Program-made: the position numbers and the translations under genes | Virus record (IMG/VR): IMGVR_UViG_3300028844_004332 | Coordinates: 1 to 40,124 of that record | Reading direction: 5' to 3' (one strand) | Origin: a virus | Length of the DNA stretch: 40,124 nucleotides | Shown here: positions 2,171 to 26,275 of the stretch, piece by piece | How positions within the stretch are numbered: the stretch's first letter is position 1 | Layout of the letters: the number at the start of each line of letters is the position of its first letter | Notes under the pieces: generated by a model | Told to the model about the DNA's origin: nothing | The model's input: the letters and a program-made list of their open reading frames with translations, nothing else | Database searches by the model: none

Positions 2171-2927
2171 TCCTATTATTATAATTCCTTACTTATTCGA
2201 ACAGGAAATTCAACAACTAAAAGCCGCTCTTGGATGGAAGCTTGAATATGAGTTTTGGCAAGATACAGGTCAGATAGGCAGTGATATGGCTTATCAATAT
2301 TTATGGAATAAGCATAAAGATAGAGATGTAATTATATTACATGCAGATATGTTGCCTCTACAAGAGGACACAGAAAATAAATGGTATACAGAATTAATAA
2401 ATACTGTAGTTAAATATCCAGAAGCTGATATATTTGGAATGAAACTTTTATATCCTCAAAAAACAGAGGAAGATAAGTATATAATTCAGCACGCTGGCGG
2501 GAGATTTAGTAAAAATGGTGAAGCAGTACATTTCGGAGGAGGACTTAACCTCTATGATGGAAAAGCAAATCAAGAATTGGAAGTCGATGAGGGGCAATAC
2601 GACAAAGTCAGAGAAGTTGCCTGGGTTACAATGGGCGGAGTTTACCTCAAAGCTTCTGTTAGGGCTTCCGTTGGTAATTTTGATCCTGAGTTCTATTGGA
2701 CTTACTATCGTGATGTGGATTGGTGTCTTTCTGCCCGCCGCGCTGGTCATAAAATTTATCAAACGGGTATACCGTTACTTCATTTTGAAGGAAAAGATAA
2801 CAAAAGATTATTAGCTCAAAATCCAAATCTACAAGAAAAATGGTCTATAAATAGATCTATATTTATGGATAAGTGGATAGGTAAAAAAGAATTTGAAACA
2901 GTAGATAGAGTAGTTGAAAATGCGTAA
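2157..2927 (+). CDS. Glycosyltransferase family 2-like protein with a compositionally mosaic centre
   Basis: The 256-residue protein looks like a GT-A fold family 2 transferase. DVIILHADMLPL (about residues 57-68) supplies the metal-binding acidic motif. Near the C-terminus, YRDVDWCLSARRAGH followed by LLHFEG matches the family's catalytic D-x-D and terminal His-containing segment. Base use changes inside the gene: roughly 2530-2790 uses GTC, GCC, CGC and CTC codons, while both flanks use AGA, TTA and ATA almost exclusively. This suggests gene conversion or recombination with a less AT-rich relative. The gene overlaps its neighbours on both sides. Substrate and acceptor are unknown. Confidence 0.72.
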   Translation: MTTLNPIIIIPYLFEQEIQQLKAALGWKLEYEFWQDTGQIGSDMAYQYLWNKHKDRDVIILHADMLPLQEDTENKWYTELINTVVKYPEADIFGMKLLYPQKTEEDKYIIQHAGGRFSKNGEAVHFGGGLNLYDGKANQELEVDEGQYDKVREVAWVTMGGVYLKASVRASVGNFDPEFYWTYYRDVDWCLSARRAGHKIYQTGIPLLHFEGKDNKRLLAQNPNLQEKWSINRSIFMDKWIGKKEFETVDRVVENA

Positions 2928-3741
2928 AAAAAGTGTAATTAGTCTAATATCTTATGATGCTAGTTATTTAGTAAATTCTATAAAAAGTTATTACAATTAT
3001 GTAGATGAAATAGTATTAGGCTTAGACAGAGATAGAATATCTTGGAGCCGTAATAAGTTTTCTTTTGACGAAGATAAATTGTGGAAAGAGCTAAGTAATA
3101 TTGATGGTGACAATAAGATAGAAGTAGTAGAAGGAAATTTTCATAGGAGTGCTGTGCCTATTGAAAATGATAACTATGAAAGAAACTTTTTAAAAGAGCA
3201 ATGCTCTAATGACTGGATTTTTTCTTTTGATGCTGATGAAATACTAATAAATGCAGATGACTTTTTTAATAAGTTTTGTCCTATAGTAGAGAATTATGAT
3301 GTAGATTTAATGTTTTATTGGGTTTTACCTTATAAAAGAGTTGGAGACGGTGAAATACTAGTGATATCTAAAGAAGATAGAAAAAGTATTCCTAATAATG
3401 AAGTTCAAGGTTTTACTACTTTAAAACATAATACCTTTAATTATTGTAGATGGACTAATAATCAAAAAAGAATTCAATCTCCTTTGGCAATATTGCATTG
3501 GAGCTTCTGCAGACCAGAAGATGAACTAGATTTAAAAATTAATAACTTTGGACACAGTATTGAAAGTAAGCAAGATCCGTTTTATGATATACAAGCTAAA
3601 GTAGATATTAACAACTACACACAATTAAAAAACTTTAAAACTAGTAATATGGGCCCTCAATGGGAATCTTTATTAAAAATTAAAGAAAAAGATTTATTAG
3701 AATATTGTAAAGAGCAAGCGGTGATTATGTATGCAAAATAA
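2920..3741 (+). CDS. Glycosyltransferase-like protein (GT-A, DxD)
   Basis: This 273-residue protein has the short N-terminal strand-helix pattern of family 2 transferases and an acidic motif DWIFSFDADEIL (about residues 98-109) that would bind the sugar-nucleotide metal. The C-terminal part has the HWSFCRPEDEL stretch seen in glycosyltransferases of the SPS/WaaE-like type. I chose ATG at 2920, which overlaps the previous stop; a TTG two codons earlier (2914) is open but less likely. It overlaps the next gene by 11 bases, which supports one operon. A role in surface or virion glycan assembly is inferred from context. Confidence 0.68.
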   Translation: MRKKSVISLISYDASYLVNSIKSYYNYVDEIVLGLDRDRISWSRNKFSFDEDKLWKELSNIDGDNKIEVVEGNFHRSAVPIENDNYERNFLKEQCSNDWIFSFDADEILINADDFFNKFCPIVENYDVDLMFYWVLPYKRVGDGEILVISKEDRKSIPNNEVQGFTTLKHNTFNYCRWTNNQKRIQSPLAILHWSFCRPEDELDLKINNFGHSIESKQDPFYDIQAKVDINNYTQLKNFKTSNMGPQWESLLKIKEKDLLEYCKEQAVIMYAK

Positions 3742-4864
3742 TATTAATTTAGAAATTATAGGTAAATTTTATGATAACCACTCTTTGTCTATTGTAAATA
3801 GGTACTTAGCTATTGAATTATCTAAGTATAACAATGTGGTTATTTCTCCTATAGACAGTTTTACTTCAGAGGCTAAACTCAGTCAAGAAACCTTACAAAG
3901 CTTACAAAATTTACTTCCTAAAGAAGAAACTGCTGTAATTCCAGATATACAAATAAGACATAGTTATCCTCCTATTTGGAGATGGCCTCATTCTAATGAT
4001 ACAAAAGTAGTATATATACAGCCTTGGGAGTTTACAAAAGTACCTTTTGAGTGGCAATATAAATTCGAAACTTTTGCTGACGCTCTTATTACCTTTACTC
4101 GTTGGACAGGTGCAGTATATCAAGAAGGTGGTATTAATCCAGAAAGGCTTTTTTGTATTCCTATAGGATATGATCCAAACATATTTTATGTAGACAGAGA
4201 TACTCCTAAAAGAGATAAATATACTTTTCTGTTTGTAGGGTGTGATCAATATAGAAAAGGTTTTGATATACTACTACAAGCATGGGCTAATACATTTAAA
4301 AAAGAAGATAATGTAGAACTTATAGTAAAAGATACTCCTCAAGTTTATGGAAAAACATCATTACAAGAACAATTAATTAAATTACAGTATACTAATAACT
4401 TAGCTAAAATAACTTATATAGACGATCCCTATTCCGAAAAAGATATGGCAGATCTATATAGAAGTGTTGATGTGTTAGTTCATCCTTATAGGGGTGAGGG
4501 TTTTGGAATGCCTGTTCAAGAAGCAATAGCTTGTGGGACTATTCCTTTAGTTACTGGAGGAGGCTGTACTGATGAATTTGTTACAGACTATAAAATAAAG
4601 TCTTCTCAAAAAATCGTAGACATTAATAACATTTTTGCAGGTAAACCAGGAGATAGCTTTAACTTAATGGGTTCTCATACTTGGTTATTAGAACCAGAAG
4701 TTCAAGACTTGATATCCAAAATGAAAATGTTATACGATAGCAAGAAACGTGCTATTCCTAAAAGTAGTAAGATAAAAAACTGGGAAGAAGCAGGGATTAT
4801 GTATAATCATGCTCTTAAAAAGATACATGATTATCCAAGGATAAAAAGAGTTCATGGAAATTGA
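3731..4864 (+). CDS. Glycosyltransferase family 4 (GT-B) protein
   Basis: The 377-residue protein is a clear GT4 (Glycos_transf_1) member. FLFVGCDQYRKGFDILLQAW (residues 167-186) starts the C-terminal nucleotide-sugar domain. HPYRGEGFGMPVQEAIACG (251-269) is the signature E-x7-E loop that holds the donor. Length fits a complete retaining transferase. It is the last and best recognised transferase of the left cluster and overlaps both neighbours. The presence of at least four different transferases plus an epimerase suggests stepwise building of an oligosaccharide rather than a single sugar addition. Confidence 0.88.
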   Translation: MQNNINLEIIGKFYDNHSLSIVNRYLAIELSKYNNVVISPIDSFTSEAKLSQETLQSLQNLLPKEETAVIPDIQIRHSYPPIWRWPHSNDTKVVYIQPWEFTKVPFEWQYKFETFADALITFTRWTGAVYQEGGINPERLFCIPIGYDPNIFYVDRDTPKRDKYTFLFVGCDQYRKGFDILLQAWANTFKKEDNVELIVKDTPQVYGKTSLQEQLIKLQYTNNLAKITYIDDPYSEKDMADLYRSVDVLVHPYRGEGFGMPVQEAIACGTIPLVTGGGCTDEFVTDYKIKSSQKIVDINNIFAGKPGDSFNLMGSHTWLLEPEVQDLISKMKMLYDSKKRAIPKSSKIKNWEEAGIMYNHALKKIHDYPRIKRVHGN

Positions 4865-5138
4865 TTTAGGTTTTGTAGGATATATAACAGAAGATAAAGC
4901 TATAAAAATAACTATAAACGAGTTTAGAGGGCAAGAGTACATTCATATAAGAGAGTATATGAAAGATGGAGATACAGGTAACTGGTTTCCTACTAAAAAA
5001 GGACTAGCGCTAAGACCAGAGTTTGTAGATATGGCTGCTCACCTTTTAGATAAGGCGGGAGATATACTTACCAAGACTTATTTAAGTAAAATTAAAAGTA
5101 AACAATTAGAATTATTTGAAGATGAAGGAGAATCTTAA
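4854..5138 (+). CDS. PC4-like single-stranded DNA-binding protein
   Basis: The 94-residue protein matches the transcriptional coactivator PC4/Sub1 fold. The segment IHIREYMKDGDTGNWFPTKK (about 30-49), followed by GLALRPE, follows the family pattern of an Ile-Arg-Glu-Tyr strand, a charged turn, then Thr/Lys-Lys-Gly-Leu and a helix. PC4 proteins form dimers that bind ssDNA and, in phages, can influence transcription or replication. An acidic C-terminal tail (LELFEDEGES) may recruit partners, as in SSB proteins; this is inference. It overlaps the glycosyltransferase before it and shares one base with the next gene (TAATG), so it is translated as part of the same run. Confidence 0.65.
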   Translation: MEIDLGFVGYITEDKAIKITINEFRGQEYIHIREYMKDGDTGNWFPTKKGLALRPEFVDMAAHLLDKAGDILTKTYLSKIKSKQLELFEDEGES

Positions 5139-5452
5139 TGGCAACTAAATCTAATAAAGCCTGGAGTGATGAAGAAGAAGAGATTCTAACAAGATTATAT
5201 GTAGATGAAGGGCTAGACGTATATGACGTAGCAGATCACTTTAAAAAAGGACACAGAAGTGTAATAAGTAAACTGGTCCAAATGAAGATATATAGAAAAC
5301 CAGAAGAAGAAAAAGAAGATAAGCGTAGTGTCAAAACTATGATTAGAGATATAGAAGAAATGTTAGAAATTGAAATAGAAGGTCTAAACCTGACAAAAAA
5401 AGCAAATTTAGAGTTGCTTGTTGATGCTTTAAAAGGTAAGATAGTAATATAA
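5138..5452 (+). CDS. SANT/Myb-like helix-turn-helix protein
   Basis: The 104-residue protein begins with a SANT/HTH-like unit (about residues 8-51): WSDEEEEI, then VADHFKKGHRSVISKLVQM. That second part is the same kind of unit that occurs four times in the larger protein encoded from 5627, so the two are likely related by duplication. A charged linker (PEEEKEDKR) leads to a C-terminal helical segment, LNLTKKANLELLVDAL. DNA binding is inferred from the fold. It is the last gene before a promoter-bearing gap and ends this operon. Confidence 0.6.
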   Translation: MATKSNKAWSDEEEEILTRLYVDEGLDVYDVADHFKKGHRSVISKLVQMKIYRKPEEEKEDKRSVKTMIRDIEEMLEIEIEGLNLTKKANLELLVDALKGKIVI

Positions 5453-5527
5453 GATAAAATTACAAATATATGAATTTAGCAATTTATAAAATAACAACCA
5501 AAAAACAAAAACACTTTCATATTTTTC

Positions 5528-5580
5528 TTGCTAAGTATACTGATATTTGATAATATCATCTTATCGAAACAAAAAGTTTC
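5528..5580 (+). promoter_or_regulatory. Candidate sigma70-type promoter with two inverted repeats
   Basis: In the 174-base gap before the HTH-array gene, TTGCTA (5528-5533) and TAATAT (5551-5556) are spaced 17 bases. The -10 region lies in a perfect 7-base inverted repeat, TGATATT/AATATCA (5541-5558). A second one, GAAAC-AAAAA-GTTTC (5566-5580), lies just downstream. These could be operator sites. The boxes are only partial matches, but position, a strong Shine-Dalgarno (AGAGGGG) further on, and a terminator after the gene all point to an independent transcription unit. Confidence 0.45.
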
Positions 5581-5626
5581 ACATTTATTAATAACACAAA
5601 ACATTTGAAACCAGAGGGGAATAAAA

Positions 5627-6322
5627 ATGGCAAAATTTGAATATACTGACGACATGGTTGCTCGTATGGAGCAAGTATGTGCAGGCGGCATTACGGAAGA
5701 TACTATTATCGCTCTTTGCGATGAGTTTGACTTTCCACGTCGCTCTGTAACTGCGAAACTTCGTAAACTTGGTTACGACGTTCCAACAAAACCTAAAGCA
5801 GCTCCTGCATTTGATGCAGACGAAACAGCCGCTTTAACATCATTTCTAGAAAGCAATAGCGGTGTACACACTGCGGAAGAAATTGCAACTCACTTTAGTG
5901 CTGAGTGGGGTCGTGACGTAACTTCTCGTCAAGTTAACGGTAAGGCTCTTTCATTAGAAATGACAGCTCATATTAAACCGGCTGAGAAAAAAGTAGCTCC
6001 ACGCACCTATTCAGAGGCGGAAGAAGCTCAGATTTCTGATATGGCGGGTTCGGGCGCTTTCTTAGAAGATATTGCAGAAGCCCTTGGCAAATCTGTAAAC
6101 TCCGTTCGCGGAAAACTTCTTTCTATGCAGCTTAAAGCACCTCAGCGTGATAAAAAAGCAGCTAAGAGCGATTCCTATGAAGGAATTGAAGATATGGCAA
6201 CCAGTATGAGTGTTGCAGAGTTAGCAGATCAATTTGGCAAAAGTGAGCGCGGTGTTAAAACTGTGTTAACTCGTCGCGGAATTTCTGCAACAGATTATAC
6301 TCCAAAAGCTTTAGAAGCCTAA
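5627..6322 (+). CDS. Four-repeat helix-turn-helix array protein, host-like codons
   Basis: The 231-residue protein carries four copies of a SANT/HTH-like unit, centred near residues 22-49, 84-109, 147-169 and 197-219. Each ends in a recognition-helix-like stretch: FPRRSVTAKLRKLG, VTSRQVNGKALSL, SVNSVRGKLLSMQL, SERGVKTVLTRRG. Linkers are Lys/Ala/Pro-rich. Nearly every Arg is CGT or CGC and I find no AGA, whereas neighbours use AGA almost throughout; GC is visibly higher. The gene has its own promoter candidate, a strong ribosome site (AGAGGGG) and a strong terminator, so it is probably monocistronic and highly expressed. A genome-coating or global regulatory DNA-binding role is inference; the exact function is unknown. 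Confidence 0.75.
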   Translation: MAKFEYTDDMVARMEQVCAGGITEDTIIALCDEFDFPRRSVTAKLRKLGYDVPTKPKAAPAFDADETAALTSFLESNSGVHTAEEIATHFSAEWGRDVTSRQVNGKALSLEMTAHIKPAEKKVAPRTYSEAEEAQISDMAGSGAFLEDIAEALGKSVNSVRGKLLSMQLKAPQRDKKAAKSDSYEGIEDMATSMSVAELADQFGKSERGVKTVLTRRGISATDYTPKALEA

Positions 6323-6348
6323 GAATTATAATATTAACTGCAATAACT

Positions 6349-6379
6349 GGCACGGCAAGCAATTGTCGTGCCCTTTTTT
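6349..6379 (+). terminator. Rho-independent terminator after the HTH-array gene
   Basis: A 10-base-pair stem, GGCACGGCAA/TTGTCGTGCC with one G-T pair, closes a GCAA tetraloop (6359-6362) and is followed by C and six T. It isolates the HTH-array gene from the genes downstream. Confidence 0.9.
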
Positions 6380-6392
6380 ATGGGGTAATCAA

Positions 6393-6713
6393 ATGAGTAA
6401 TAGTGACAGTTCTTTATTTTTACATAATTTACCTGATAAGGTACTTCAAGATATTTTAAATATGTCTGGAGAAGATAAAATAATGTACTTTACCAATTTA
6501 ATAAAGAGATTTTATCCAGACGTAGAGTCTGCAGAAGAGTTTGAAGGATTAATAAAAGCATATAATGCTAGTTTTGCTTTAGAGTATGTATTTAGACAAG
6601 ACGAAGAAATAGCCGACTCTTTTACCTGTGTATACACAAAAACAGGACTAGTTAGAGAGTTAAGTAATGACTTATATTTTATGATGGCAGAGTATAAGTA
6701 TCAGATTAATTAA
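6393..6713 (+). CDS. Unrecognised small acidic protein
   Basis: I do not recognise this 106-residue protein. It is mostly helical by appearance, acidic and rich in Phe, Tyr and Leu (for example LIKRFYPDVESAEEFEGL), with no membrane segment or obvious catalytic motif. I chose ATG at 6393, preceded by ATGGGGTAATCAA. A TTG at 6363 is in frame but lies inside the terminator stem. It is squeezed between that terminator and the next promoter, among DNA-binding proteins, so a regulatory or anti-host role is possible but unsupported. Confidence 0.6.
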   Translation: MSNSDSSLFLHNLPDKVLQDILNMSGEDKIMYFTNLIKRFYPDVESAEEFEGLIKAYNASFALEYVFRQDEEIADSFTCVYTKTGLVRELSNDLYFMMAEYKYQIN

Positions 6714-7595: not shown

Positions 7596-8813
7596 ATGCA
7601 GGAGTTCTATGAAATACAAAAACAAGAAAGCTCTAAAGCTTACTTGCGCTCAGAATTAATAGATATTACTTTAGAAGGTGAAACTTCTATAGACTCTAAT
7701 TTTATTTCTTCTCAATTACAAGATTATTATATAAGAGAAGAAACTATTAGTTTTATTGATAAATTTATAGACGACTTAGAGAATTTAGAACAGACTGAGA
7801 TTATAGATAAAATTCAAGAACATGTATTATCTGTACAAAAGTTTATTCCAGAAGGAGAAGAACTGTTTGATGTAGCAACTATTGAAACAGTACCTAAAGA
7901 AGATAACTTTGTTATGTTTCCTAGTGGTCTAAGCACTGACTTTGATTCTGCAAATGGAGGTTTTGGCTTAGAAGAGCTAGTGCTTTTTGGAGGCAGAAGA
8001 GGATCAGGCAAGTCTATTATCACTTTGAATATGGCTTTAAATAACTTCTTGCTTAATAACTCTGTAATGTTCATGAGTATTGAAATGCGCTATGTAGAAG
8101 TGTACTATCGTTTGATGAGTATGATTAGTGGAGTACCTTTTAGTGATTTTATGCTTAATAATTTAACTAAAGATCAGAAGTTTTCTATAGCTAAAAGTAA
8201 ATTGAATACTTTTTATAAACCGGGTGAAGCATCTGATTCTGTATACAGTAATCTGTTGACTTCTGGTAGTTTTAATAATTTTGATCAAGAACTTAAAAGA
8301 GGCGTAGTTCCTTTTAAAGATAATCGTTTTCATATTATTGATGATGTACAATTAAGTCTCGCTAGAATAGATCACTATCTAAATATGATGACTACTAAAC
8401 ATGATATTAAAATGTGTGTTATTGATTATTTAAACATTGTAAAAGTAGAAGACCGTATGGATTGGAAGAGTCAAATTAATATATCTGATTCTCTAAAAAC
8501 TCTTGCAAGAAAGTATAAAGTTATTATGATCTCTCCCTATCAAATTGATGCGTCAGGAGAAGCTAGATTTGCTAAAGGTGTTCTTGATAGTGCTGATAAA
8601 AGTTTTAGGTTTATGCCTAGTGATTTATCAGAAGATCCTACTGCCTTACCTTTTGAAGTAGCTAAGATTAGAAATGGTAAAGCTATAAAGTTTAACGTAC
8701 ATATGGATTGGGATTGTCTAAGAATAGACTCTAATAAGTCTAAAGCTATTGGCGGTAGGATACTAAATAAGTATGGCGATGATAGTAAAGAGCAGGGCAG
8801 GGATTTAGGTTAA
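7596..8813 (+). CDS. DnaB/gp41-type replicative DNA helicase, possibly 5'-truncated by a 1-base change
   Basis: The 405-residue protein has the RecA-type core of hexameric replicative helicases: Walker A GGRRGSGKS (residues 132-140), a catalytic-Glu strand MFMSIEM (about 158-164) and Walker B MCVIDYLNIV (about 270-279). It would unwind DNA at the phage fork. The ATG at 7596 lacks a clear ribosome site. A better start may be ATG at 7534, immediately after the preceding stop: it reads MSVDLQK and then hits TAA. Adding one T at 7555 restores frame through LINNFYTKNLRIPS into this ORF, giving about 426 residues. The primase follows in an overlapping TAATG junction, so the T7-style helicase and primase are separate proteins here. 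Confidence 0.88.
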   Translation: MQEFYEIQKQESSKAYLRSELIDITLEGETSIDSNFISSQLQDYYIREETISFIDKFIDDLENLEQTEIIDKIQEHVLSVQKFIPEGEELFDVATIETVPKEDNFVMFPSGLSTDFDSANGGFGLEELVLFGGRRGSGKSIITLNMALNNFLLNNSVMFMSIEMRYVEVYYRLMSMISGVPFSDFMLNNLTKDQKFSIAKSKLNTFYKPGEASDSVYSNLLTSGSFNNFDQELKRGVVPFKDNRFHIIDDVQLSLARIDHYLNMMTTKHDIKMCVIDYLNIVKVEDRMDWKSQINISDSLKTLARKYKVIMISPYQIDASGEARFAKGVLDSADKSFRFMPSDLSEDPTALPFEVAKIRNGKAIKFNVHMDWDCLRIDSNKSKAIGGRILNKYGDDSKEQGRDLG

Positions 8814-9694
8814 TGCATGATATATACTCTATATTAGATAAAAAACAAATTGAGTACACAAATAATCCTAATCATAGTGAAGAAATTCTTATTAAGTGTG
8901 TTAGCGGTCTGCATGAAGATTCCAATCCTAGTATGCGATTTAACTTAGATAAAAACGTATTTAATTGTTTTTCTTGTGGGTTTGGAGGAAGCTATAAAAA
9001 GTTGCTAAAAGCTATAGGAGAAGATTCTTCTGTAGAAATAGAAACTAAACAGACTTATAAGATTAAAAAGCTAAAAAATAAACTTCATTCTAAGTTTTTT
9101 GGAATGAATATAATATTGCCTTCAGATAAGATAAATTTTACTCTAGATTTTAAAGGAGTAAATGGTTCTATAATGAAAGAGTTTGAAAGTTTCACTACGG
9201 GACAATTAGGATTAGTAGACTACTTATGTTTTCCTGTTTATCAACAAGGAAAGCTTAGATTTATAGAAGGAAGATACAAAATATTAAACGTCAAAACACA
9301 AAGTCCAAGATATATGAGAAAGCCTTCAAACGCTGCTACCAGTGATTTATTATTCCCTATAGACAAAATAGTAGATAAAAGTCATTTAATACTTGTTGAA
9401 GGCTTATTTGATATGTTAAACTTATGGCAACACGGATATAAAAATACAGTTTGTATTTTCGGAACAAACAATTTTCGTAAGGAAAAAGCGTCTATGATAG
9501 ATAACTTAGGATGTACCAGAGTTACTATATTCATGGATAATGATATAAGTGGTAACAAAGCTGCAGAAAATATTACTGCACTACTAGAGGCTAGAGATAT
9601 AGAAACTATTATTGTTCAGCCCCCTGAAGGCAGAGATGCCGGAGACTTAAATAAGTCAGAATTAATGAAATTATTTGGAGAAGAATATGAGTAA
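8813..9694 (+). CDS. DnaG-type DNA primase (CHC2 zinc finger plus TOPRIM)
   Basis: The 293-residue protein has a zinc-binding N-terminus with Cys29, His34, Cys52 and Cys55 (FNCFSCGFGG), the CHC2 arrangement. A TOPRIM domain follows, with LILVEGLFD (Glu196) and VTIFMDNDISGNKA (Asp242, Asp244), which bind the catalytic metals. It would make RNA primers for lagging-strand synthesis. Its length is short compared with bacterial DnaG, and it lacks a helicase-binding C-terminal domain of the usual size. It overlaps the helicase stop by one base and the polymerase start by eight bases, so the three are translated together. Confidence 0.88.
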   Translation: MHDIYSILDKKQIEYTNNPNHSEEILIKCVSGLHEDSNPSMRFNLDKNVFNCFSCGFGGSYKKLLKAIGEDSSVEIETKQTYKIKKLKNKLHSKFFGMNIILPSDKINFTLDFKGVNGSIMKEFESFTTGQLGLVDYLCFPVYQQGKLRFIEGRYKILNVKTQSPRYMRKPSNAATSDLLFPIDKIVDKSHLILVEGLFDMLNLWQHGYKNTVCIFGTNNFRKEKASMIDNLGCTRVTIFMDNDISGNKAAENITALLEARDIETIIVQPPEGRDAGDLNKSELMKLFGEEYE

Positions 9695-11855
9695 AGATTT
9701 AAAAGTAGCTTTAGTACTTAGTAATCCTTTAAAAGCAGATACTGTATCAAAATTAAAATCTTTCTCTAAGGGAATTGATTTTGAAGTGAAGTATCTATCT
9801 TCTGAACCTTTAGAAAAAATTCTAAAGAAAAATGTCGATCTAGACTTAACCACTCTAGATGAGTATGATATTATTTGTCCTGTGGGTGCAGAATCTTTAA
9901 AATACACTTCAGGGCTTACGGGGATACTTAAGTATGCGGGTCAGATAGTAGAAGAAAAGTATATACCTATTATTGATCCTAATATGTTATCTATTAAGCC
10001 TCAGTACAGATTAGAACTGCAAAAATGTTCAGAAGAATTTTTACCGTATTTAGAGCAGTTTAAAAAAGCGGATACTTTAGTTGTAGACATTGAGACTACT
10101 GCCCTGTCCGCTAGAAAAGGCTCTATCATTGGAATAGCTATGTCTGCTCGATCTCATCAAGGTATTTTTGTAGCTTGTGATGTAGTAGAAGAGTTCTACG
10201 ATGAAGTAAAACAAATGTTTATAGATAAAACTATTGTATTGCATAATGCTAAGTTTGATGTTCAATTTATGTATCAAGCACTGAAGTTTGAGTTTCCAAA
10301 GTTTGAAGACACTATTCTCATGCATTATTGTCTAGATGAAACAGTAGGCTCTCACGGCCTAAAACAGCTAGCTATGAAGTTCACTGATCTAGGTGACTAC
10401 GATAAAGACTTACATGATTATAAAAAAGAGTTTTGTAGGAAAAATAAAATCTTACTGGCAGATTTTAACTATGGTATGCTGCCTTTAGATATTTTATCTC
10501 CTTATGCTTGTAAGGATGCTGACGCTACTTTTCAGCTTTATGATAAATTTAAGCCTTTAATAGATAAGAACTCTAAATTTTCTTATGTATACAAAGAACT
10601 ATTAAAGCCGGCTACTGAGGCTCTTATGTATTTAGAAGATACTGGAGGACCTATTGAACTTCAAGTATTAACGGATATTGAAGAAGATTTTAAAATTGAT
10701 ATTGAAGAATGTATGGCTGAAATATCTATGCACCCTGCTATTAAGATTTTTGAAGAACAAGAGAAAAAGACTTTTAACCCTAATAGTACTTTTCACTTAC
10801 GAGAGGTGCTATTTAACATATTAAAACTTCCTTCTACTAAGAAGACTGCAACAGGTGCTAAATCTACAGACGCAGAAGTACTTTCTGAAATGAATAACCC
10901 TCTTGCAGATGCTATCCTTGACCTCCGTAAGAAAGTAAAACTTTCTACAACTTATATTAAAAACATTAAGAATGGAGTAGATAATGATAACAGGCTTCGT
11001 TCTAGTTTTAATATTATTGGAACTGCTGCTGGGCGTCTATCCTCTTCTGGTGTTCTTAATTACCAAAATCTTCCTAGAGACAAAGACTCAGGTATTAAAA
11101 AGTTTTTTAAAGCCTCTCCAGGATTTAAAATAGTACAAGCAGATTTAGGAACTGCAGAGGTATATGTAGCTGCTGCATTAGCTGAAGATTCTTTTTTGCA
11201 GCGAGCTTTTGTAGAGGAGTTAGACTTTCACTCTTACGTAGCTCATAGTATGTTTAAACTTCCTTGTGAAATTGATGAAGTAAAAAATTTATACGCTGCT
11301 GAGAGACAAAATGCAAAAGCTATTACCTTTGGTATTTTGTATGGGGCTGGACCTTCTAAAATTGCAGAAACTGCTAATGTATCTATTGAAGAGGCTAAAC
11401 GCTTTATCAAATTGTACTTTACTCAAGCAAAAGACTTAAAAAGATGGATTGATGGTAATATTTCTTTTATTAAAGAAAATCACTTTACTTACAGCGCGTT
11501 TGGACGTAAAAGACGTCTCCCAGAGGCAGGTGCTGACTCTAGAGGGGTAGCTGCTCATGCAGAACGATCAGGTCTTAACTTTTTAATTCAAAGTGTCGCA
11601 TCAGACATTAACTTATTAGGTATTGTAGATACCGTTAAATGGGTACAAGATAATCAGCATGAAGATAATATTAGAATTTTTGCTACAGTACACGATTCTA
11701 CTATTGCAGAGGTTAGAGAAGACTATATAGACATTTATGCAGATAACTTATCTTTAAACTTACAAAAAGACAGAGGCGTGTTTATTGAGGGCAAACCTAT
11801 TAAAGTAGATATTGAAGTAGGCCCTAGTTGGGGGGAGCTTAAAGACTATCGATGA
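9687..11855 (+). CDS. Family A DNA polymerase with 3'-5' exonuclease
   Basis: The 722-residue protein is a Pol I-type replicative polymerase. Exonuclease motifs: DIET (Asp134, Glu136), HNAKFD (Asp191) and YACKD (Tyr273, Asp277). Polymerase motif A is QADLGTAEV (Asp486, Glu491). Motif B is RQNAKAITFGILYG (Arg540, Lys544, Phe548, Tyr552). Motif C is TVHDS (Asp670). Phe548 is the equivalent of E. coli Phe762. Motif C has Ser where Pol I usually has Glu. The ATG at 9687 has GGAGAAGA just upstream; a TTG at 9675 is less likely. There is no 5'-nuclease domain: that activity is encoded separately at 24456. It ends in an ATGA overlap with the next gene. Confidence 0.95.
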   Translation: MSKDLKVALVLSNPLKADTVSKLKSFSKGIDFEVKYLSSEPLEKILKKNVDLDLTTLDEYDIICPVGAESLKYTSGLTGILKYAGQIVEEKYIPIIDPNMLSIKPQYRLELQKCSEEFLPYLEQFKKADTLVVDIETTALSARKGSIIGIAMSARSHQGIFVACDVVEEFYDEVKQMFIDKTIVLHNAKFDVQFMYQALKFEFPKFEDTILMHYCLDETVGSHGLKQLAMKFTDLGDYDKDLHDYKKEFCRKNKILLADFNYGMLPLDILSPYACKDADATFQLYDKFKPLIDKNSKFSYVYKELLKPATEALMYLEDTGGPIELQVLTDIEEDFKIDIEECMAEISMHPAIKIFEEQEKKTFNPNSTFHLREVLFNILKLPSTKKTATGAKSTDAEVLSEMNNPLADAILDLRKKVKLSTTYIKNIKNGVDNDNRLRSSFNIIGTAAGRLSSSGVLNYQNLPRDKDSGIKKFFKASPGFKIVQADLGTAEVYVAAALAEDSFLQRAFVEELDFHSYVAHSMFKLPCEIDEVKNLYAAERQNAKAITFGILYGAGPSKIAETANVSIEEAKRFIKLYFTQAKDLKRWIDGNISFIKENHFTYSAFGRKRRLPEAGADSRGVAAHAERSGLNFLIQSVASDINLLGIVDTVKWVQDNQHEDNIRIFATVHDSTIAEVREDYIDIYADNLSLNLQKDRGVFIEGKPIKVDIEVGPSWGELKDYR

Positions 11856-14767: not shown

Positions 14768-15436
14768 ATGGCCTTACAATGGACAAACTTAAAAGTACAA
14801 CCCGCAAATAATAGTGGGGGAAATAGAAATATTGAGCGTATTAAGCTCACAGAAGGAGAAAATAAGATTAGATTAATTGGGGATGTAATGCCTCGTTTTG
14901 TTTATTGGGTAACCAATAACGAAGGAAAAAGAACCCCTATTGAATGTCTAAGTTTCGTAAGAGAAAACGAAACTTTCCAAGAACAGGAAGGTATTGATCC
15001 TGTAAAAGAAATTGATCCTGACATCTATCAAGATAAACCTGTATTTTCTTATGTGTGTAATGCCGTAGATAGAAAAGACGGGTCTATTAAATTATTTGAT
15101 CTTAAGCCTACTATATATAGACAAATCTTAGACTATGCTATGAACCCAGAGTACGGTAATCCTTCAGATACAGAAGAAGGATACGATATTACTATCAAGA
15201 AAGAAAAGACTGGACCACAAGTTATGAATGTAAAATATACTTGTATCCCTTCTAGAAGAACTGTACCTCTTACAGATGAAGAAAAAAATGCTGAACTTTT
15301 TGAGCTAGAGAAGATATTTAAACGTCCAACATATGAAGCTCAAAAAGAATTTTTACTTCGCAATACCGCCTACTTTTCAGAAGCAGTAGCTGCTGATTTA
15401 AGAGTAGATGATGATGAAAGAATGGAAGATATTTAA
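14768..15436 (+). CDS. Single-stranded DNA-binding protein (gp32-like)
   Basis: The 222-residue protein looks like a phage ssDNA-binding protein of the T4 gp32 type. It starts with a Gly/Asn-rich leader, has an OB-like region with many strands (ENKIRLIGDVMPRFVYWVTN and following), and ends in an acidic tail, VDDDERMEDI, the usual partner-binding device. Cys residues are present, but I do not see a clear zinc ribbon. It would coat ssDNA at the fork and during recombination. A strong promoter lies 420 bases upstream, and it is preceded by TTGGAGAAATA as ribosome site, consistent with high expression. The assignment rests on architecture and context rather than a unique motif. Confidence 0.72.
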   Translation: MALQWTNLKVQPANNSGGNRNIERIKLTEGENKIRLIGDVMPRFVYWVTNNEGKRTPIECLSFVRENETFQEQEGIDPVKEIDPDIYQDKPVFSYVCNAVDRKDGSIKLFDLKPTIYRQILDYAMNPEYGNPSDTEEGYDITIKKEKTGPQVMNVKYTCIPSRRTVPLTDEEKNAELFELEKIFKRPTYEAQKEFLLRNTAYFSEAVAADLRVDDDERMEDI

Positions 15437-22699: not shown

Positions 22700-22775
22700 G
22701 CTCCTATAGCTCAGCTGGTAGAGCAATTGATTTGTAATCAATAGGTCCGCGGTTCGAGTCCGTGTGGGAGCACCA
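22700..22775 (+). tRNA. tRNA-Thr (anticodon TGT), CCA encoded
   Basis: A 76-base cloverleaf: acceptor GCTCCTA pairs with TGGGAGC, the D arm carries AGCTCAGCTGGTAGAGC, the anticodon stem ATTGA/TCAAT encloses loop TTTGTAA (anticodon TGT), and the T loop is TTCGAGT. CCA is encoded. It reads ACA codons, which suit an AT-rich phage in a less AT-rich host. Confidence 0.96.
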
Positions 22776-25987: not shown

Positions 25988-26275
25988 ATGGCATTAACAC
26001 CTCTTCAAGATCGGGTGCTTATTAGACGAACAGAAATAGAAGAAACCACCTCAGGAGGTATTATAATACCTGAAAGCGCTAAAGAAAAGCCTGCAGAAGG
26101 CACAGTAGTAGCTTGTGGTAAAGGACTAAGAAAAGATAATGGAGACCTAGTACCTCTATCTGTATCTACAGGAGATACTATTTTGTTTGGTAAATGGTCA
26201 GGCACAGAAGTAACTGTTGATGGAGAAGATCTTTTAATAGTAAAAGAATCTGACATTCTAGGCATAGTACATTAA
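25988..26275 (+). CDS. groES: GroES-like co-chaperonin
   Basis: The 95-residue protein matches GroES over its whole length: LQDRVLIRR at the start, the mobile loop region [15 protein letters not shown] (about 21-35), and ESDILGIV at the end. The mobile loop ends in the Ile-Ile-Ile-Pro contact that docks on GroEL. As with T4 gp31, it could cap host GroEL to help fold a phage capsid or other protein. AAGGAG lies before the ATG. Confidence 0.95.

Follow-up and report, generated by a model that had tools for sequence, protein, structure and literature searches.

The stretch of DNA analyzed here, hereafter the window, comprises positions 1 to 40,124 (40,124 nucleotides) of the IMG/VR virus record IMGVR_UViG_3300028844_004332. 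The gene at 5627-6322 is an ortholog of phage T5 D5 in an uncultured T5-type phage. The gene, the signals around it and its neighbors are as follows (window coordinates):

4854-5138: small PC4-like protein (transcriptional coactivator p15; Pfam E 1.1e-12), encoded two genes upstream of D5
5138-5452, + strand: small protein with one D5-like helix-turn-helix (HTH) unit (PHROG 323 E 3.6e-07; hhalign 81% to D5 unit 3)
5528-5554, + strand: candidate promoter, TTGCTA (5528-5533), 15 nt and GATAAT (5549-5554), or 17 nt to TAATAT (5551-5556)
5566-5580, + strand: leader inverted repeat GAAAC-AAAAA-GTTTC, which probably forms a hairpin close to the start of the D5 message
5613-5619, + strand: Shine-Dalgarno-like AGAGGGG, read from the sequence
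5627-6322, + strand: gene for D5-like DNA-binding protein, 231 aa, ATG start, single open frame
6349-6379, + strand: intrinsic terminator, GGCACGGCAAGCAATTGTCGTGCC plus a T run, with a 10-pair stem at 6349-6372
7596-8813, + strand: DnaB-like helicase (PHROG/Pfam)
8813-9694, + strand: primase (PHROG/Pfam)
9675-11855, + strand: DNA polymerase A (PHROG/Pfam)

The orthology is based on a family match, on direct similarity and on gene order. PHROG 323 (transcriptional regulator D5-like; category, transcription regulation) gave a near full-length match to the protein, residues 1-225 aligning with profile positions 3-253 of 319 (E 1.9e-27). BLASTP against T5 D5 (T5.118; PHROG 323) yielded 39% identity over 199 aa (E 4e-38), and the gene order is of the T5 type. 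The two proteins are homologous over these 199 residues, with an identity of 35-39%, and differ in length (255 aa in T5 and 231 in the window). By tblastn, matches to window D5 were found in 898 of 50,697 phage records, all of them below 60% identity; 895 of the 898 spanned at least 80% of the query. The identity of the gene is in this sense ordinary: a known kind of gene from an uncultured branch. According to the note of the T5 record, D5 binds DNA and is needed for both DNA replication and late transcription; the part of this note available also mentions an involvement in shutoff of expression. Classical work on D5 reportedly dates from 1979. The function proposed for the window phage is carried over entirely from T5. 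The window protein is acidic (pI 5.2, net charge of about -7); the D5 proteins of nine T5-type phages are mildly so (pI 5.4-6.8).

Other searches returned no accepted relatives. A sequence search of the PDB gave seven distinct sequences at E ≤1, and none was accepted as a D5 relative: the best (8vd6, CAP REPEAT; E 1.5e-05) contained no single stretch that passed, and the second (a Timeless homolog; E 0.00067) was likewise rejected. Scanning bacterial and archaeal genomes with two peptide patterns matched 16 stretches, none of which was confirmed, and such patterns may miss distant relatives.

The neighborhood also resembles that of T5. D5 is followed by DnaB-like helicase, primase and DNA polymerase A in the same order in both phages (7596-11855 in the window, with two ORFs, at 6363 and 6778, between D5 and the helicase), and in both it uses only CGY codons for Arg and has a strong hairpin behind it. 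Beyond polymerase A lie a helicase, SSB, a metallo-phosphoesterase (SbcD-like by position), an SbcC-like protein, ribonucleotide reductase, a RusA-like resolvase and an exonuclease. Overall, the window has the T5 order plus insertions; other T5-type phages were compared as well. The upstream side differs: D5 overlaps ligB in T5 and has a ligase subunit upstream, whereas in the window the PC4-like and single-HTH proteins lie upstream and no gene runs into D5. Window D5 is a free-standing gene with a terminator behind it. This lone position and the covarying leader hairpin found in relatives (see below) are new here. Elsewhere in the window, we noted a phage-borne GroES-like co-chaperonin (25988-26275) and a tRNA-Thr gene (22700-22775).

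The initial annotation had read four HTH units in the protein, and structure prediction agrees. An AlphaFold2 model, based on an alignment of 70 sequences 65-98% identical to the query, contains four three-helix groups. They are listed below with their best resemblances; it should be noted that VIA-align Z scores below 8, as for units 1-3, may reflect mere common arrangement, and that unit 4 was barely covered by the VIA-align structure rows:

5648-5767, + strand: predicted HTH unit 1, residues 8-47, homeodomain-like (VIA-align Z 6.0-6.8)
5816-5953, + strand: predicted HTH unit 2, residues 64-109 (closest in VIA-align to a sigma54 domain, Z 6.7, and a small terminase, Z 6.5)
6014-6124, + strand: predicted HTH unit 3, residues 130-166, GcrA-like (VIA-align Z 7.1 to the GcrA DNA-binding domain, rmsd 1.5 over 44 residues)
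6185-6277, + strand: predicted HTH unit 4, residues 187-217, sigma-region-4-like (Pfam Sigma70_r4_2 E 4.9e-05, under the curated cut-off)

A mean pLDDT of 89.7 with a pTM of 0.40 indicates that the individual domains are predicted with confidence and that their relative placement is uncertain. The stretches between the groups are less confident (10-residue pLDDT means of 66-73), so that the units look like beads on a string. In this prediction, D5 is a chain of four small HTH domains on flexible linkers. Its best viral structural match in BFVD was D5 of Vibrio phage vB_ValS_X1 (E 1e-17, TM 0.54). None of 679 Foldseek matches in the PDB reached E ≤0.001; the tandem-HTH proteins Reb1, SNAPc and Tc3 transposase were among the top rows. 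When profiles of the units were compared by hhalign, high probabilities were obtained for units 2 and 3 (86%), 3 and 4 (82%) and 2 and 4 (68%), an intermediate one for 1 and 3 (46%), and very low ones for 1 and 4 (8%) and 1 and 2 (0.3%). Common ancestry of unit 1 with the rest is thus unsupported by sequence. Aligned relatives are similar to the window protein in length and pattern, so a four-unit protein is not the rarity it was first taken for, and the HTH residues are highly conserved.

Codon usage sets the gene apart from its surroundings. The absence of AGA, remarked on at the outset, was confirmed: Arg is encoded by seven CGT and five CGC codons, and D5 is the sole ORF without AGA among 43 tabulated, although AGA makes up 73% of Arg codons in the window background. 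Exclusive use of CGT and CGC is rare elsewhere in this phage, D5 being the only such case among 27 ORFs with at least eight Arg. Similarly, none of its nine Ile codons is ATA (background, 55%), and its deviation from the background codon usage (z 11.9) far exceeds that of the next gene (6.5). The gene was also correctly described as richer in GC than everything around it; its GC content is the highest among the 38 ORFs that reach 100 aa (0.439 versus 0.318 for other coding sequence). A purely codon-based explanation of this excess was rejected: the same amino acids written in background codons would give 0.395, and composition, with 33 Ala among 231 residues, supplies 7.7 of the 12.1 points, or about two thirds.

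We compared codon adaptation in the window and in stretches of nine T5-type phages, which are not all independent (T5, oselot and mar003J3 are mutually close). The ranking covered ORFs of at least 100 aa within stretches of 40-49 kb rather than whole genomes, and the reference was formed by E. coli ribosomal and elongation-factor genes, which serve only as a proxy for the host of the window phage, possibly an alphaproteobacterium. An eleventh record, Aeromonas phage AhSzq-1, was left out of the codon tables: its D5 is annotated in two pieces and the whole ORF was not found. This split (L024, 19935-20672) could be a real break or a sequencing error. Arg was encoded only by CGT and CGC in D5 of all 10 records. 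By codon adaptation, D5 ranked first in 8 of the 10, including the window (of 38 ORFs) and T5 (of 41), third in 70E34-1b (z 1.4) and fourth in Ceto (z 1.6). In the T5 stretch it (CAI 0.756) stood above the major head gene (0.697) and D11 (0.658), counterparts of which are annotated as single-strand-binding proteins. The SSB gene of the window (14768-15436; D11 by position) is not codon-optimized, with 10 AGA among 14 Arg codons, although T5 D11 ranks third. The GC rank was more variable, and a GC excess is not family-wide: D5 came first in three stretches (window, T5 and Sugarland) and second in two (oselot and mar003J3), lay between fourth and eighth in four more, and was only 16th of 33 in VspSw_1.

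Among 86 metagenome relatives of window D5, many of which are near copies, the gene was richer in GC than its flanks in every case (mean +11.5 points, minimum +4.7). Arg was all CGT/CGC in 47 of them; of the 39 that were not all CGY, 16 contained some AGA or AGG, and in six loci (L018, L019, L075, L080, L104 and L106) AGA was the main Arg codon. Four of these six, when pooled, still avoided ATA and preferred GGT while using AGA and much TTA leucine, which suggests adaptation to a different tRNA pool, perhaps after a change of host. No tRNA-Arg that might explain this subgroup was found in the six loci, which are fragments of 7.7-16.7 kb. Thus, the codon optimization of D5 is strong and old. 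Together with the GC data it fits long-standing selection for high output, and high expression of window D5 is supported by its codons.

The promoter named in the initial annotation stood only in part. All 10 aligned sequences, among them the window and five loci nearly identical to it (L002-L005 and L013), have TTCTTGCT and TTTGATA without any change. On the other hand, a consensus promoter scan gave nothing suitably placed on the + strand ahead of D5, and TTGCT-N17-GATAAT with up to two mismatches occurred 29 times across the window against 29.0 expected, that is, without enrichment. The candidate is therefore retained because of conservation and not on account of the consensus scan. The distant relatives listed carry TTGC or TTGG and a TATAAT-like hexamer 15-18 nt apart upstream of D5, and T5 has TTGCTA-17-TATAAT (read from sequence) upstream of the ligB-D5 pair; the promoter type looks common to T5 and the relatives of the window. 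G-rich stretches similar to the Shine-Dalgarno-like one precede the ATG in relatives, as judged by eye.

The strong terminator behind the gene was confirmed. Its hairpin is kept in aligned close relatives, and a stem followed by T residues was found after D5 in 40 of the 53 relatives whose sequence extends far enough downstream; the other 13, judged by eye, mostly carry a G+C-rich hairpin without a T run. A strong hairpin also follows D5 in eight T5-type phages (T5, oselot, VspSw_1, Ceto, phi 3, PM135, Sugarland and 70E34-1b), and for mar003J3 only a cut stretch is visible. With what appear to be its own promoter and terminator, this free-standing gene seems geared to very high output.

The -10 box is closely followed by an inverted repeat, the arms of which vary from phage to phage. 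In the window it is weak when taken alone (5 bp stem, p 0.096; ordinary leader folding energy, p 0.315). We examined 56 of 87 sequences (86 loci and the window), picked by eye mainly to remove near copies and short upstream regions. The leader stem was better than in dinucleotide shuffles at p ≤0.05 in 51 of 56 and at p ≤0.01 in 21, the window being among the five that failed. Control stretches upstream of other ORFs reached these levels in 42 and 10 of 519, respectively, although the framing differs, controls being set by distance from the start codon and leaders by the -35 box. Covariation was analyzed in 44 leaders, aligned by sequence only, that remained after dropping those more than 85% alike. 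Seven pairs were formed in 88.9% of cells (48-49% when the partner was shifted by one column), and 45 cells were compensatory versus a shuffled mean of 12.8; none of 500 shuffles reached 45, a count that is not a probability because the leader sequences are related. RNAalifold independently predicted six of the seven pairs. Of the 56 loci, 47 (50 of 58 sites; the window is not among them) have at D5 a promoter-like site followed by a perfect stem of at least 6 bp, as against 104 of the 1,975 promoter-like sites found elsewhere in these loci; the combination is thus strongly enriched at D5. Compensatory changes preserve base pairing close to the beginning of the message, as placed by an inferred start site, in the relatives and not in the window alone; the hairpin is accordingly supported more in the relatives than in the window itself.

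In nine T5-type phages, no leader hairpin was seen in the gaps upstream of D5 by eye and best-stem listing. Rfam gave three matches on window 5400-6700, all under the gathering scores, and no description of a D5 leader hairpin was found there or among the matches listed for T5 D5 literature (where PMC13405049 and PMC8624392 were the two papers that dealt with T5 D5) and general stem-loop terms. One Rfam match, snoZ223 at 6533-6623 (32 bits; gathering score 45), falls inside a phage ORF and is probably due to chance.

Taken together, we propose, with a probability of roughly 0.8, that this is the D5 gene of an uncultured T5-type phage and that its product would be a high-output coat of double-stranded DNA serving replication and the late switch, in line with the record of the T5 protein. 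At an early stage of infection, transcription from a strong promoter of host type would give rise to a short D5 message; the hairpin would cap its 5' end and slow its decay; and host-preferred codons would allow very high output. The protein may then grip double-stranded DNA at several points through several linker-joined HTH units and coat phage DNA, both for its replication and for the onset of late transcription. Linked HTH units together with very high output would favor coating of phage DNA, which is consistent with the recorded requirements of T5 for D5 in both processes. This also fits the high expression that had been suggested at first, as for a genome-coating or host-takeover protein. 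Considering the acidity of D5, simple charge neutralization of DNA is unlikely. D5 is listed among the major particle-associated proteins of phiR2-01, whereas it is not among the proteins found in T5 particles (PMC8624392).

The composition of the gene had also raised the possibility of recent transfer from a GC-richer genome. The difference in GC is real, yet the ortholog sits in T5-type gene order, all 86 metagenome relatives share the excess and nine T5-type phages the Arg codons, and we rejected this explanation as very improbable. The real rival to a coat, unlikely as we judge it, is a site-specific transcription factor which, in the manner of GcrA or a sigma adaptor, turns on late genes via a few promoters and RNA polymerase. 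It would account for the fit of unit 3 to the GcrA DNA-binding domain, the weak resemblance of unit 4 to sigma region 4, the PHROG category, the acidic protein and the need of T5 for D5 in late transcription. However, a codon adaptation above that of the major head gene, as in T5, exceeds what a regulator should need, and the Z score of unit 3 lies in the range that common arrangement may explain. The likeness to GcrA lies in the fold of predicted unit 3; the matched solved domain is a single unit of a Caulobacter protein, and GcrA was not among the 10 Pfam families listed for window D5 at E ≤1. D5 might instead act mainly on the host, covering or blocking its DNA and shutting off host or early genes, as the mention of shutoff in the T5 record and the toxicity of T5 D5 expressed alone (PMC13405049) would suggest. 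Toxicity on over-expression would be expected of any abundant DNA binder, though, and the recorded need in replication points to phage DNA, which makes a main action on the host improbable.

Two further readings concern the leader. It is improbable that the inverted repeat serves at the DNA level, as the operator of a dimeric repressor (which might be D5), rather than as an RNA hairpin. A palindromic operator could likewise change both arms together, but the loop varies from 4 to 11 nt among relatives, which would alter dimer spacing and favors an RNA hairpin; moreover, the HTH residues of D5 are highly conserved while the arms change. A doubtful and quite speculative extension of the coat is that D5 regulates how much of it is made: after saturating the phage DNA, it would turn to the hairpin of its own leader, in the form of RNA or of extruded DNA, in a T4 gp32-like loop set up by a double-strand binder. 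The idea comes from the preserved shape of the hairpin despite its changing sequence and from the modeling of D5 on a retron DNA stem-loop, as described below.

Parallels to this leader exist in other systems. T4 gene 32 is autoregulated, and its product gp32 binds single strands. The message of this gene, which encodes a DNA-binding protein, has a structured leader and is unusually stable (PMC3014915). D5 is likewise a phage DNA-binding protein with, in its relatives, a predicted structured message leader; the gene 32 leader differs in being a pseudoknot, and autoregulation of D5 is only proposed. The ompA message is the textbook case of mRNA stabilization by a 5' stem-loop. Stem-loops and 5' UTRs are listed as mRNA-protecting features in PMC7509114. 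The D5 leader shares the stem-loop with bacterial leaders of this kind, an effect on decay being only proposed.

Several relatives carry a hint of the host. In 8 of 65 scanned loci (L002, at 2806-3156, L004, L005, L006, L007, L010, L013 and L034), all close relatives of the window, D5 is preceded at a distance of about 7-8 kb by a permuted alphaproteobacterial-type tmRNA; Rfam alpha_tmRNA matched in all five loci searched (90-140 bits). Many of the other scanned loci are too short upstream to hold it, and the window starts too late to cover its position, whereas L003, L008 and L009, each with 10 kb upstream of D5, have no tmRNA. A small basic ORF beside the tmRNA of L002 (2127-2444) is presumably ribosomal protein bS21. 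The presence of this tmRNA in close relatives hints at an alphaproteobacterial host.

D5, an old genetic factor of T5, has recently attracted attention as a trigger of anti-phage defense. A 2026 preprint reports that T5 D5 triggers the anti-phage retron-Kva2 and is toxic alone and more so with the retron; mass photometry indicates that D5 remodels the retron complex, and the evidence that it binds the DNA stem-loop of the retron comes from AlphaFold3 modeling (PMC13405049). Our data add that D5 is a marker of many and varied uncultured phages of the T5 type and that codon optimization is a lasting and quantifiable trait of this gene. Since one subgroup favors other codons, the trait seems to follow the translation machinery of the host. 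The leader element is testable and deserves experiment. If D5 does coat phage DNA, it could serve as a nucleoid protein for T5-type replication and as a target for host defenses.
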